Below are positions 36,789 to 41,557 of a DNA stretch of 51,966 nt, one piece after another. The notes under the pieces are model-generated. The model saw nothing but the letters and a program-made list of their open reading frames with translations. It made no database searches and had not been told where the DNA came from. A program made the translations under genes and the position numbers. Source of the stretch: Sphingobacteriia bacterium (GTDB lineage Bacteria; Bacteroidota; Bacteroidia; NS11-12g; UBA9320); contig VMDK01000031.1 of the NCBI GenBank assembly GCA_008080835.1, forward strand, positions 1-51,966. Reading direction: 5' to 3'. Positions within the stretch are counted from its first letter, which is position 1. The number at the start of each line of letters is the position of its first letter.

Positions 36789-37619
36789 TCACGAATTGAC
36801 GTCGTGAAGGACGATCATTGGGAGCTCTGCCTTCATGAGCATGGAATGGGAAATACTATTGCCCAGAATACGATTGATGAAAGAATCTCTGCGTTGGACG
36901 AGCATGAGCAGATCGGGTTTCTTCGTGTCGATGTAATGCTCGAGCCCTTTCTCGATGCTGTCGTCCACGATATTCATGTATTGACAGTTCCCAGAACTGC
37001 ATAATTGATCCATGTAGTTGCGTGACTCCTCTCTGATCTCTGTTTTCTCGGGAGAAATGTAGAATAATTCCAGATGGACTTTGCGGGTATCTGTATTCAT
37101 TGCATCGATCATTTTAGCAATTTGATCGCGGCCCTTGAATGGTTTGAGGTCAGTGCCAAAAGCAATATTGAATTCTCCGCCATCGTCCAGCACTGTAGTA
37201 CCAGGAACTGTGATGATCGGTATGTCCACTTTGCGTATCACACTGGATGCGTTGCTACCCATCAACTTGCCTTTGATCCCGGTTTCGCCTTTGGTACCCA
37301 TGATGATGAGGTCAATATCCCAATCATTGATCACCTCATGAATGTAACTCGTTAGCGTACAGTTTCGCACGAAGCCGTTCACTTTCATCTCCGTACTTTT
37401 CAGATCCTCGATCCGAGCCATTTCCTTGGCCATTTTCTCATCTGCTTCTTTCTTCAGAATATCATCGATAGATATGAGCATACTTCCGTCTGAACGGTTG
37501 GTGCCATAGGCATTGTAGATGAACAGGCTCACATCGGTGCCTTGAAAAAGCCAAATGGCATAATTCACTGCCTTTCGGGCATTCTCTGAGAAGTCGGTAG
37601 GTATGAGGATATTATACAT
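36789..37619 (-). CDS. Universal stress protein (tandem UspA)
   Basis: The 276-residue protein consists of two UspA-like domains. The first begins ILIPTDFSENARKAVNYAIWL and has the nucleotide-binding IIMGTKGETGIKGKLMGSNASSVI near residue 110 (the G-2x-G-9x-G-S/T pattern). The second (about 145-276) is more diverged, ending with HSMLMKAELPMIVLHDV. Such proteins bind ATP and help survive starvation or stress. It is the third gene of the operon from 38804 and starts 3 bases after the stop of the small duplicated gene. Confidence 0.92.
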   Translation of the reverse strand: MYNILIPTDFSENARKAVNYAIWLFQGTDVSLFIYNAYGTNRSDGSMLISIDDILKKEADEKMAKEMARIEDLKSTEMKVNGFVRNCTLTSYIHEVINDWDIDLIIMGTKGETGIKGKLMGSNASSVIRKVDIPIITVPGTTVLDDGGEFNIAFGTDLKPFKGRDQIAKMIDAMNTDTRKVHLELFYISPEKTEIREESRNYMDQLCSSGNCQYMNIVDDSIEKGLEHYIDTKKPDLLMLVQRRDSFINRILGNSISHSMLMKAELPMIVLHDVNS

Positions 37620-37622
37620 AAC

Positions 37623-37973
37623 TTATCGTACTGAGTCGAGCTGCTGTGCGATCGTCCAATGATCCGTATTCACCGTTTCGATCCAATTCAGTCCAGCCTT
37701 GCGAAACACCTGCACATTCAGTCCAAGATGATCACGGAAGCGCGTTTCAACCTCCCCCACTGTTTGGTCTTTTGTGATGTCCAGGCTCACTTCTTCTCCT
37801 TCTCCGCTGAGTTCCTTGACGGTCATGTCATCTTTGATGATGTCCGATTTGCTGGAACCTTCTCCTTCTCCATGAGCGTGCTTTACGAATTCGATCTTCA
37901 AGCCGGGAAAGGCATTGGAGAATTCGCTTTGGATCTGACTGATGGTCTGGTCATTATTGATGGTTAGTTGCAT
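37623..37973 (-). CDS. Small internally duplicated protein in the Usp operon
   Basis: This 116-residue protein is unlike any family I know. It is two copies of a 30-residue motif: LTINNDQTISQIQSEFSNAFPGLKIEFVK (4-32) and LDITKDQTVGEVETRFRDHLGLNVQVFRK (65-92), each a strand with D-Q-T, a helix and a second strand ending F-x-K. A Gly/Glu-rich linker (HGEGEGSS) separates them, and the C-terminus continues with LNWIETVNTDHW. The strand-helix-strand halves hint at a beta-grasp-like fold, but that is a guess. It lies between two Usp genes with gaps of 15 and 3 bases. Confidence 0.82.
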   Translation of the reverse strand: MQLTINNDQTISQIQSEFSNAFPGLKIEFVKHAHGEGEGSSKSDIIKDDMTVKELSGEGEEVSLDITKDQTVGEVETRFRDHLGLNVQVFRKAGLNWIETVNTDHWTIAQQLDSVR

Positions 37974-37988: not shown

Positions 37989-38804
37989 TTAGTCGTGATA
38001 AATCACAAGTGGCACGTGCGTGTGGTATGCCATTTTGCTGGTGATACTGCTGTGAAAGAGGTTCTCAAAAAATCCTCTATTGTGGCGCTTCACCGCCATG
38101 ATGTCGACCTTGTCGCGGATCACATAATCCTCGAGCGCATGTTCTACATCATCTGCTTTTAATTCTACTCGCTTGATTCGATCGTACTCGTCCACCACCT
38201 TCGACACGTGATGATGTCCCGGCAGCTGAGCCAGTTTCTCATTGACCTCCACGTGTACCACATGTAGCTCCGGGTCAAAATGCTCGAGCAAGTCGCTGAA
38301 AGCTCTTATCTCCTCTGCGTCATTATCGGAAAGATCTGTAGCAAAGGCCACGATCTTTGGAGTGCTGAATTTTGTACCCACAGGGATAGCCATCACCGGG
38401 CGTGAAGACTTTTTCGCAACACCTGCCGTAACACTTCCCAAAAGTTGTTCGAGGATATTTCCCGCACCTTTGGTGCCCATGGCTACAAGGTCGACGTTCA
38501 TCTCCTTAGCCGTTGAACAAATCAGGTCTACAGCAAATCCAAAATCTGTAATGACGGTCGGCTCGGAGCCTACCTCTTGTCTTACAACATTGGCAAGATC
38601 ATCCAATTTGCTTTTACACAGATTCTTCTGATCCTCGATGATCTCTGCACTGCTGTCAACCGGTGTATTGCCATCGATCGCAGGGATGTGCATAGCGTGT
38701 AGAATGATCAACTCAGCATCGGCTTCTTGAGCCAGCTGTGCTGTATATCTCAGTGCGTTCATCGCATTATCTGAGAAATCGGTTGGAAAGAGGATCTTTT
38801 TCAT
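37989..38804 (-). CDS. Universal stress protein (tandem UspA)
   Basis: The 271-residue protein begins ILFPTDFSDNAMNALRYTAQLA and has two UspA domains. VAMGTKGAGNILEQLLGSVTAGVA near residue 110 carries the ATP-binding pattern, followed by PVMAIPVGTKFS; the second half ends SITSKMAYHTHVPLVIYHD and lacks a full G-rich loop. It is the first gene of the Usp operon and sits behind a consensus -7 box and two palindromes, in a gap next to a Crp-type regulator that may act on it. Confidence 0.92.
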   Translation of the reverse strand: MKKILFPTDFSDNAMNALRYTAQLAQEADAELIILHAMHIPAIDGNTPVDSSAEIIEDQKNLCKSKLDDLANVVRQEVGSEPTVITDFGFAVDLICSTAKEMNVDLVAMGTKGAGNILEQLLGSVTAGVAKKSSRPVMAIPVGTKFSTPKIVAFATDLSDNDAEEIRAFSDLLEHFDPELHVVHVEVNEKLAQLPGHHHVSKVVDEYDRIKRVELKADDVEHALEDYVIRDKVDIMAVKRHNRGFFENLFHSSITSKMAYHTHVPLVIYHD

Positions 38805-38817
38805 GTTTTCAACTATT

Positions 38818-38825
38818 CAAATGTA
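38818..38825 (-). promoter_or_regulatory. -7 promoter element for the universal-stress operon
   Basis: TACATTTG is exact, 13 bases before the ATG at 38804. No -33 consensus is present; instead a palindrome (38840-38850) occupies that region, as expected for a promoter that needs an activator. Confidence 0.65.
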
Positions 38826-38839
38826 CTTTTTGAAATTAT

Positions 38840-38850
38840 ATGAGACTCAT
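38840..38850. promoter_or_regulatory. Short palindrome overlapping the -33 position of the Usp promoter
   Basis: ATGAG-A-CTCAT: an 11-base perfect palindrome with a 1-base centre, in the region where the -33 element would lie. Confidence 0.4.
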
Positions 38851-38855
38851 TATTC

Positions 38856-38877
38856 ATGTCAAGCATTTAGTTGACAT
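38856..38877. promoter_or_regulatory. 22-base inverted repeat, candidate Crp-type regulator site
   Basis: ATGTCAA, an 8-base spacer, TTGACAT: perfect 7-base arms. Its centre is about 52 bases upstream of the expected Usp transcript start, a usual activator position. The order (GTCAA outside, TTGAC facing in) is not that of FNR/Crp sites, so the match to a known motif is weak. Confidence 0.5.
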
Positions 38878-38907
38878 TTATCAGCCCTCATTCTATAATA
38901 TTTTCGA

Positions 38908-39960
38908 TCAGTAAGGCGCCTTGCGCAGTACATCCGGCTTCAACACCTTGATGGCGCTGCCATGTATCTCCACCAATCCTGATGCTTTGAATTCCGAAAG
39001 CATGCGTATTGCGCTTTCTGTGCTTGTGCCTACAATACTCGCCAGATCTTCGCGACTGATCGCCATCTCAAATGGCTGTCCTTCCTTTCGGTATTTATCG
39101 TGTAAGGCAACCAAGGCATCAGCCACTCTTTTTCTGACAGTCTTATAAGCCAGATCGAGCAATTGTTTCTCCTTTTCTTCCAAGTTGTTGGACATCATTT
39201 GGATGAAGGACGCAGCAACCTCCCGGTTCCTCGTTATGAGTTTCAGGAAATCTTCCTTTGGGATCAGGATAACCTCGCTATCCTCCAAGGCCTCTGCAGA
39301 ATCAAAGTAATTCGTATCTCTCAGAATTGCTTCGTATCCAAAATAGTCACCCGGTTTCAACAAGGTGCCGGTCATTTCCTTTCCATCGTTGTTCACCTGG
39401 AAGATCCGCACTTTACCCTGCTTCAGCACGTACAAGTATCGCGGTGAATCGTCATTGGAGAATATGATGTTCTTCTTGGGGTATTGTTTGACCTTTCGAT
39501 CATTCGAAAGATCATTAAGGGACGCCAATCCTCTTGCAGTTGCAATGAATTCCTCCACATTGGAGGAGTCAGCCGATGCCTGGTGCAACTTTTCACTTCT
39601 TTGGATCCTTGCCTCGAGGGCTTGCAACAGATCGGTCTCTTCGAATGGTTTGGTTATGTAGTCATCCGCTCCGAGATTCATCCCTTTTCTTATATCACTT
39701 TGTTCGGTCTTGGCGGATAAATAAATGAAAGGGATCCGCGCCGTTTTGGGATCATTACTCAGGATCTGTAGTACTCCGTATCCATCCAAATTCGGCATCA
39801 TTATATCACACAAGATGATATCCGGCAAAACCTCTTTCGCCAGCTGCACACCCCGCTTCCCGTCTTCCGCTGTGTGCACTTCGTAATTCGCGAGTTCAAG
39901 GATCTCCGCGATGTTTTCACGCACATCCGTGTTATCGTCAATTATGAGAACTTTCTTCAT
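38908..39960 (-). CDS. Response regulator with cNMP-binding and Crp-type HTH domains
   Basis: The 350-residue protein has a REC domain (1-125; phospho-acceptor D52 in CDIMMP, acid pair D8/D9, Lys in YITKPF), then a cNMP-binding-type beta barrel (about 160-270; LYVLKQGKVRIFQ, LKPGDYFGYEAILRD) and a winged helix (about 280-345; ISREDLASIVGTSTESAIRMLSEFKASGLVEIHG) of the Crp/Fnr type. This joins two-component input to a Crp-like output. It follows the histidine kinase gene with a 23-base overlap, so the two form a pair. The next gene downstream on this strand is the Usp operon, a likely target. Confidence 0.92.
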   Translation of the reverse strand: MKKVLIIDDNTDVRENIAEILELANYEVHTAEDGKRGVQLAKEVLPDIILCDIMMPNLDGYGVLQILSNDPKTARIPFIYLSAKTEQSDIRKGMNLGADDYITKPFEETDLLQALEARIQRSEKLHQASADSSNVEEFIATARGLASLNDLSNDRKVKQYPKKNIIFSNDDSPRYLYVLKQGKVRIFQVNNDGKEMTGTLLKPGDYFGYEAILRDTNYFDSAEALEDSEVILIPKEDFLKLITRNREVAASFIQMMSNNLEEKEKQLLDLAYKTVRKRVADALVALHDKYRKEGQPFEMAISREDLASIVGTSTESAIRMLSEFKASGLVEIHGSAIKVLKPDVLRKAPY

Positions 39961-41557
39961 TTTCTGATTTTAAAGCCAACTTGAGTTTCATACATGTTCC
40001 TTCACCCTCCACACTCTCACACCGTATGCTACCGCCTATCAAATCTACGTAGCTTTTCACAATATGCAAACCCAGACCGGTTCCCTGAATATTACCTGCA
40101 TTGGAGGCTCTGTAGAACCGTCCGAACAACTTGGCCTGATCGGATTCGGGAATTCCTATTCCATGATCCTGAACTTCCAAATCGATCGATTGAGGGCGAA
40201 ATTCGATCCTCACTTCGATCGGGCTGTGTTCAGGAGAGTATTTCGAAGCATTTGAAAGCAGGTTTACCAGGATATTCTTAAAGACCACCTTATCCAGCAT
40301 GACCGGTCTGGCCTTTCCCGAGACTTGCAGATCTACACTTTGTCCGGATTTCAGTATGCCTTCGGTTTCTTCTATACATTCTTTCACGAAGGGAGCAAGT
40401 TCGATCTGAACCGGATTGAACGTGAGTTTTCCGGCATTCAGTTTTTCAAGCGAGAGAAAATCCTCCAATATGGAATTGAGATTCTCGACATTGCTCTGGA
40501 TCCTGTTCACATGCTTTGTCCTCTTTTCTTGCTGTTCGCCTTCGGTGTATTTGGAAATGAGTGTGGCTGAACTAAGGATCGCACTCAGAGGCGTTCGGAA
40601 TTCATGAGAGGCCATGGACACAAAGCGCGATTTGAGCTCATTGAGTTCGATCTCTTTGGCCAATGCTCTGGCCATTTCCTCTTCGGCTCTTTTCCGCTGA
40701 GTGATATTGGTTTCCACCACAAGGATCTGCTCTACTTCACCACTCACTTTGAACAGAGGTTCCGCTCGCATGAAATAGACGTTTCCCTTGGTATTGATCT
40801 CAAAGTTGGTCGGGTTCCCCTCAAACACCTGAAGGAGTTTCTCCCGGACTGTCTCTCGCAGATCCTCGTCAATTCGCTCTATGAAGCTTGAACCGATAAG
40901 GTCCTCCGTCTCAATCCCCATTTCGAGAAGACCCTTTCCTTCGACAAAGACGTAATTCAGATCCGTGTCGAACACGTTGATCGTTCCATTCGGGAAGTTC
41001 TGTGCGATCCGTTTATAAAGCTTCTGGCTTTCTTGCAGCGCCTGATCCGATCGTTTTTTGCTACGGATCTCTTTCTGCAATTGTCGGTTCGCATCTTCCA
41101 GATCGTGGGTACGCTCCTTCACTTGACGCTCGAGCGTTTCGGCATGTTCTTTCAGCGCTTCTTTTGCACGAACCTCCTCACTGAGGTCGTGAATGATACC
41201 GGTGAAAAATTTCTCACCGTCGAGCTCGAATTCGCTGACCGCAAGACGAAATGGGAAACTCGAACCATCCTTCCTTTTTCCTGATACTTGTCGGCCTTTC
41301 TCAATAATGTGGCCCACTCCAGTATGCAAATACCGCTCGATATATCCCTGATGAGCCGAATGATCCGGTTCAGACATCAAAGCATTGATATTCTGACCGA
41401 GAAGCTCATCATAGTCATACCCGAAATATTGGAGGGCGCTGGGGTTGATGTCACGGATGACACCGCGGGTATCGATCAGGATGATCCCGTCGATTACCGT
41501 TTTAAATACTGATGTGAAAAACTCCTTCTTCTGTTCTCTTAAAGGGATGGTTTTCAC
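39938..41557 (-). CDS. PAS-domain histidine kinase
   Basis: The 539-residue cytosolic kinase has two PAS domains (about 10-125, 175-290) with a coiled coil between them, then HisKA with the phospho-acceptor H318 in SMASHEFRTPLSAIL. An HATPase domain follows: N box LLSNASKYSPEH, G1 VQDHGIGIPESDQAKLF, G2 GTGLGLHIVKSY. No membrane segment is seen, so it probably senses a cytosolic signal; PAS domains can bind heme, flavin or small molecules, but nothing shows which. It overlaps the response regulator by 23 bases and follows the coiled-coil gene by 18 bases. Confidence 0.93.
   Translation of the reverse strand: MKTIPLREQKKEFFTSVFKTVIDGIILIDTRGVIRDINPSALQYFGYDYDELLGQNINALMSEPDHSAHQGYIERYLHTGVGHIIEKGRQVSGKRKDGSSFPFRLAVSEFELDGEKFFTGIIHDLSEEVRAKEALKEHAETLERQVKERTHDLEDANRQLQKEIRSKKRSDQALQESQKLYKRIAQNFPNGTINVFDTDLNYVFVEGKGLLEMGIETEDLIGSSFIERIDEDLRETVREKLLQVFEGNPTNFEINTKGNVYFMRAEPLFKVSGEVEQILVVETNITQRKRAEEEMARALAKEIELNELKSRFVSMASHEFRTPLSAILSSATLISKYTEGEQQEKRTKHVNRIQSNVENLNSILEDFLSLEKLNAGKLTFNPVQIELAPFVKECIEETEGILKSGQSVDLQVSGKARPVMLDKVVFKNILVNLLSNASKYSPEHSPIEVRIEFRPQSIDLEVQDHGIGIPESDQAKLFGRFYRASNAGNIQGTGLGLHIVKSYVDLIGGSIRCESVEGEGTCMKLKLALKSENEESSHN

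Follow-up and report, generated by a model that had tools for sequence, protein, structure and literature searches.

Tandem FNR/FixK-type boxes before a universal-stress operon in Bacteroidota, and a predicted low-oxygen switch made of a FixL-like kinase and a Crp/Fnr-type response regulator

Several known bacterial systems connect a heme-based or iron-sulphur sensor to boxes in promoter DNA. In rhizobia, the FixL-FixJ-FixK cascade has a heme-PAS kinase on top and FNR/FixK boxes at the bottom. In E. coli, FNR-controlled promoters carry a box resembling TTGAT-N4-ATCAA, centred at -41.5 in class II promoters, together with a poor -35 element. In mycobacteria, DosR and the heme kinases DosS and DosT drive the expression of Usp, Hsp20 and CBS-domain proteins via tandem boxes; DosR is a LuxR/NarL-type regulator, and DosS and DosT sense through GAF domains. 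For Bacteroidetes, we found no description of FixL, REC-Crp or tandem FNR sites in open-access full texts, a body of literature outside which most subscription papers fall, and a 2005 signalling census makes no mention of Crp or FixL. Here we analyse a contig of 51,966 nucleotides (the window), in which the genes for a PAS-containing sensor kinase and a Crp-type response regulator lie directly upstream of an operon encoding two universal-stress proteins.

Tandem boxes in the promoter gap

The gap between the stop codon of the response regulator (RR) gene and the start of usp1 (38805-38907) had been annotated, in a first pass made from the letters alone, as holding an exact -7 promoter box, an 11-base palindrome and a 22-base inverted repeat, ATGTCAA-N8-TTGACAT. 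All of these letters are present in the gap, but the inverted repeats as drawn do not exceed what chance would give. The -7 box stands as annotated: TACATTTG (38818-38825, minus strand) is an exact TAnnTTTG, an element mapped to positions -12 to -5 in Flavobacterium psychrophilum (PMC9723704), and the predicted transcription start of usp1 lies near 38813. The palindrome ATGAGACTCAT (38840-38850, no strand) fared less well. Dinucleotide shuffling of the gap yields a palindrome with 5-base arms and a loop of at most 3 bases in 44% of cases, and any 5-1-5 palindrome was found in the corresponding spacer of only 2 of 40 related promoters; being at chance level and unconserved, it was rejected as an element. 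The inverted repeat (38856-38877, no strand) is present in a single copy genome-wide by pattern search of the window's genome, and dyads with 7-base arms and a spacer of up to 20 bases appear in 17% of the same kind of shuffle.

The letters of this dyad are, judged from the sequence, best parsed as parts of two FNR/FixK-type boxes on the minus strand. The distal box, TGATAAATGTCA (38872-38883), is a perfect TGAYN4RTCA and, with its flanking bases, reads TTGAC-ATTT-ATCAG at 38871-38884, a palindromic arrangement like TTGAT-N4-ATCAA; the proximal box, TGACATGAATAA (38850-38861), which is nearer the gene, has one mismatch. Because the two lie 22 bp apart, centre to centre, the right half of one box faces the left half of the next, and it is these inner halves that spell out the dyad, whose distal half is overlapped by TGATAAATGTCA. 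The dyad had been taken to fall outside the FNR/Crp arrangement and perhaps to mark a new type of site, a suggestion which this parse does not support. Between TGACATGAATAA and TACATTTG there are 24 bases, 1 bp more than the usual 23, so that the boxes lie 34 and 56 bp from the -7 box, or at about -42.5 and -64.5. None of 1000 shuffles of the gap produced a pair of TGAYN4RTCA boxes in tandem at the 22-bp distance when up to one mismatch was allowed. When both boxes and the -7 box were combined in a composite score with a maximum of 22, the window scored 21, its only match of at least 19 over 52 kb; 2 Mb of Markov sequence gave none at or above 19, and 2 Mb of sequence given the AT-rich base composition of the gap itself reached a maximum of 20.

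Conservation, genome-wide distribution and targets

The recurring FNR/FixK core TGAY-N4-RTCA was first seen just past the RR stop codon in relatives. Among 142 distinct RR loci, it occurs within 200 bp past the stop in 57, where 0.05 per 200 bp would be expected, and a composite score of at least 19/22 was reached just after the RR gene in 39, compared with none of 142 control stretches inside RR genes. The other 103 loci score below 19, which is accounted for in some by a convergent next gene. In 19 cases the box centre is 55 bp from an exact TAnnTTTG, in another 13 it is 33 bp away, and six of the seven remaining cases lie within 2 bp of one of these values; given a -7 box at -12 to -5, most relatives' boxes are centred at -41.5 and -63.5. 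Both the 33/55 bp of the relatives and the 34/56 bp seen here are distances of the class II and class I kinds, and the spacing holds even in relatives with one box only. The distal box is kept at the same place in relatives, most of which, where that box is perfect, also pair it with a proximal box bearing one mismatch. When the gap was compared across relatives that keep the gene order, the core of the dyad was found to persist only within the tandem box array. In several relatives the distal box (TGAT...ATCA) starts at the regulator's own stop codon.

Since a genome scan for single boxes gave 266 sites, too many to be useful, the tandem pattern was used to identify targets. Of 395 genomes in the class, 182 have exact tandem boxes; the reversed pattern, run as a control, gave counts near zero. 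Of 103 elements, 41 have an exact -7 box 23 nt past their second box, and no other offset accounts for more than 3; as the elements were collected by the box pattern alone, of which the -7 box is not a part, this spacing constitutes independent evidence. Tandem boxes occur in 124 of 195 RR-positive genomes and in 57 of 199 others (odds ratio 4.35), an association whose p value of 4e-12 overstates the independence of genomes that are related to one another. Within 1.5 kb of an RR gene their density is 0.044 per kb which, with about 2.1 tandem boxes per RR-positive genome and assuming genomes of about 4 Mb, makes them some 80-fold denser there. The matches in one genome (G415) were discarded as a probable repeat artefact or repeat family, numbering 109 against 61 for the reversed control. 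Another genome (G321) has 18 tandem elements overall, compared with the usual one to a few, six of those listed falling within about 20 kb (C56:45200-65100).

In the window, the operon behind the boxes comprises usp1 (37989-38804), a gene for a 116-residue protein without a Pfam or NCBIfam match (37623-37973) and usp2 (36789-37619), all on the minus strand, with both usp products matching Pfam Usp. Relatives of the 116-residue protein, 116-132 residues long, recur directly downstream of tandem boxes in several genomes. The 85 genes found directly downstream of tandem elements include those for Usp (8), COX1/ccoN (7), hemerythrin (6), histidine kinases (4), baeRF-type proteins (4), DoxX (4), response regulators (3), Hsp20 (3), ScdA/RIC (3), rhodanese (2) and FixS/CcoS (2), and in several genomes the boxes precede the kinase and RR genes themselves. 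One of the baeRF-type proteins, when tested, matched a ribosome hibernation factor model with a score under its cut-off, and predicted genes of this baeRF/hibernation-factor-like kind follow tandem boxes at four loci, which suggests that low oxygen may be tied to a shutdown of translation. Besides the element in the window, its genome has two near-exact tandem elements (composite 20/22), one before a gene for a CBS-domain protein and one before a gene for a sulphur-transport protein, each with a -7-like box at the usual distance of 23 bases; this genome has one COX1-family match. The tandem matches with two mismatches that were inspected in the same genome (C4 and C11) lie within open reading frames and were discounted.

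The kinase, the regulator and candidate binders

The gene for the kinase (39938-41557, minus strand) encodes a soluble, FixL-like PAS-HisKA-HATPase sensor. Its N-terminal PAS domain (41147-41521, minus strand) aligns to the FixL heme domain structures 1dp6 and 8js5 (E 7e-30), and the proximal heme histidine, His69, is kept together with both arginines, Arg75 and Arg89. Among RR loci with a detectable PAS domain of the FixL heme kind nearby, the heme histidine is retained in 107 of 114 adjacent kinases. The position of the distal arginine of FixL, Arg220, is occupied by Met, Leu or Ile in many relatives, so the ligand may vary. Against the FixL equivalog NF041777 the kinase scores 164 bits, below the curated cut-off of 850. 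We predict that this kinase binds heme and responds to O2, or to another heme ligand, which narrows the cytosolic signal proposed in the first-pass annotation.

The adjacent response regulator (38908-39960, minus strand) has the architecture REC-cNMP-HTH_Crp (PF00027, PF13545). Its cNMP-binding fold and an HTH_Crp domain with a Glu-x3-Arg recognition helix place it in the Crp/Fnr superfamily. This helix, TESAIR (residues 314-319, codons at 39004-39021, minus strand), contains Glu315 and Arg319, both invariant in 19 aligned relatives, and a Thr precedes the Glu in most of the wider regulator set; we take it to resemble the helix of FNR rather than that of CRP (Arg-Glu). An N-terminal Fe-S cysteine cluster is absent from the translation, in which the one cysteine, Cys51, lies inside the receiver domain. 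The protein scores 71.8 bits against the FixJ model (cut-off 255), its output being cNMP and HTH_Crp, not a LuxR/GerE-type HTH, and 71.5 bits against the FixK model NF050806 (cut-off 300), from whose stand-alone form it departs in having a REC domain. We infer that this regulator is probably the protein that binds the tandem boxes.

How certain one can be of the binder is limited, since a wider group of proteins probably reads the box. Tandem boxes also occur in 57 genomes without a strong full-length RR match; of these, the ones looked at, with several tandem elements each, carry stand-alone FNR-like Crp/Fnr proteins, most with N-terminal CxxC clusters and many or most with a GTATExxIR-like helix. 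These probably sense O2 themselves, given that cysteine cluster, and the boxes are probably not exclusive to REC-Crp regulators. The boxes of the window could then be real and yet be bound by a stand-alone Fe-S FNR or another Crp/Fnr protein, with the neighbouring two-component system acting elsewhere. No stand-alone Fe-S FNR was found in the window's genome, where the only other confident Crp-family protein has the helix SREVISR, and the boxes cluster beside RR genes and are associated with RR presence. As this genome is 94.55% complete, an unseen FNR is possible, but we consider this assignment unlikely.

If, instead, the boxes served mainly as a repressor site, or were bound weakly at the usp1 promoter, the mismatch in the proximal box and the 24 rather than 23 bases to the -7 box would find an explanation. 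However, known Crp/Fnr promoters are activated from class I and class II positions, and most relatives with a perfect distal box share the one-mismatch proximal box, making such a role quite improbable. We give even less credence, indeed very little, to recognition of ATGTCAA-N8-TTGACAT by the regulator as a single operator of a new type: the dyad is indeed perfect and has no second copy in the genome, but shuffling produces its like too often, and conservation tracks the TGAY-N4-RTCA boxes at their fixed 33/55 spacing, even where a relative has a single box. The dyad was rejected as a single site on these grounds.

A predicted low-oxygen switch and its known counterparts

The best explanation of the locus, which we consider likely to be correct, is that a FixL-like kinase and a REC-Crp/Fnr regulator activate the usp genes from tandem boxes at low oxygen. 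The soluble heme-PAS histidine kinase would sense O2, or another heme ligand, and phosphorylate the response regulator encoded beside it. Dimers of the regulator would then bind the two TGAY-N4-RTCA boxes near -64 and -42, at class I and class II positions separated by two helical turns, and recruit RNA polymerase to a TAnnTTTG promoter that has no -33 element. This would switch on, at low oxygen, the usp1-orf116-usp2 operon together with a small number of further genes, such as those for the CBS-domain protein and the sulphur transporter. What can be read in the DNA and its translations is the presence of the boxes at a conserved spacing, the signature of a heme-PAS domain and the clustering with the regulator gene. 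Phosphorylation would presumably be what activates the regulator, low O2 the signal and activation the effect. The earlier observation and its interpretation are each partly supported: an activator-type promoter, likely control by the adjacent kinase and REC-cNMP-Crp regulator as a local activating circuit, and a cytosolic signal find computational support, and the new site type does not.

Since many Bacteroidota show the same arrangement next to a predicted oxygen-sensing heme kinase and its partner regulator, it looks more like a widespread low-oxygen switch than a new type of site. More tentatively, we see a serious possibility that this is a Bacteroidota-wide switch for low oxygen and dormancy, in which a FixL-like kinase would act through a fused FixJ/FixK regulator whose two dimers, bound cooperatively to the adjacent boxes, simultaneously contact RNA polymerase from a class I and a class II position, with Cys-cluster FNR reading the same boxes in other lineages. 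If so, about half of the sampled genomes of the class would carry an oxygen-response two-component system apparently undescribed in the open-access literature. Its promoter code would be readable (two TGAY-N4-RTCA boxes 22 bp apart, with TAnnTTTG 23 bases on), and low-oxygen regulons would become predictable in Bacteroidota, covering cbb3 oxidase, Usp, hemerythrin, Fe-S repair, ribosome hibernation factors and Hsp20.

With DosR/DosS/DosT the likeness is one of working only: a heme kinase and regulator, Usp, Hsp20 and CBS targets, and tandem boxes. The output domain of the window's regulator is Crp-type, and so not homologous to the NarL/LuxR-type output of DosR. The E. coli FNR class I and class II promoters resemble the locus in the box itself, in the class II centre at -41.5 and in the poor -35 element, whereas here two abutting boxes lie at -63.5/-41.5 and the regulator has a receiver domain and no Fe-S cysteine cluster. 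The rhizobial FixL-FixJ-FixK cascade shares with it both the kinase at the top and the boxes at the bottom, as well as cbb3 oxidase and its assembly genes as targets. In contrast to rhizobia, the boxes here are in tandem with a 22-bp spacing, the promoters are the TAnnTTTG promoters of Bacteroidota and the Usp operon adjoins the regulator gene; and with a receiver domain joined straight to a Crp/Fnr output, one protein would take over the steps of both FixJ and FixK. A further counterpart is found in the stand-alone FNR-like proteins of Bacteroidota, which mostly have the same GTATExxIR type of helix and apparently use the same tandem boxes, but which have no receiver domain and, for the most part, carry an N-terminal cysteine cluster. 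If the model holds, the two kinds of protein would offer a natural comparison between a phosphorylation-controlled regulator and a Cys-cluster FNR acting on the same DNA.
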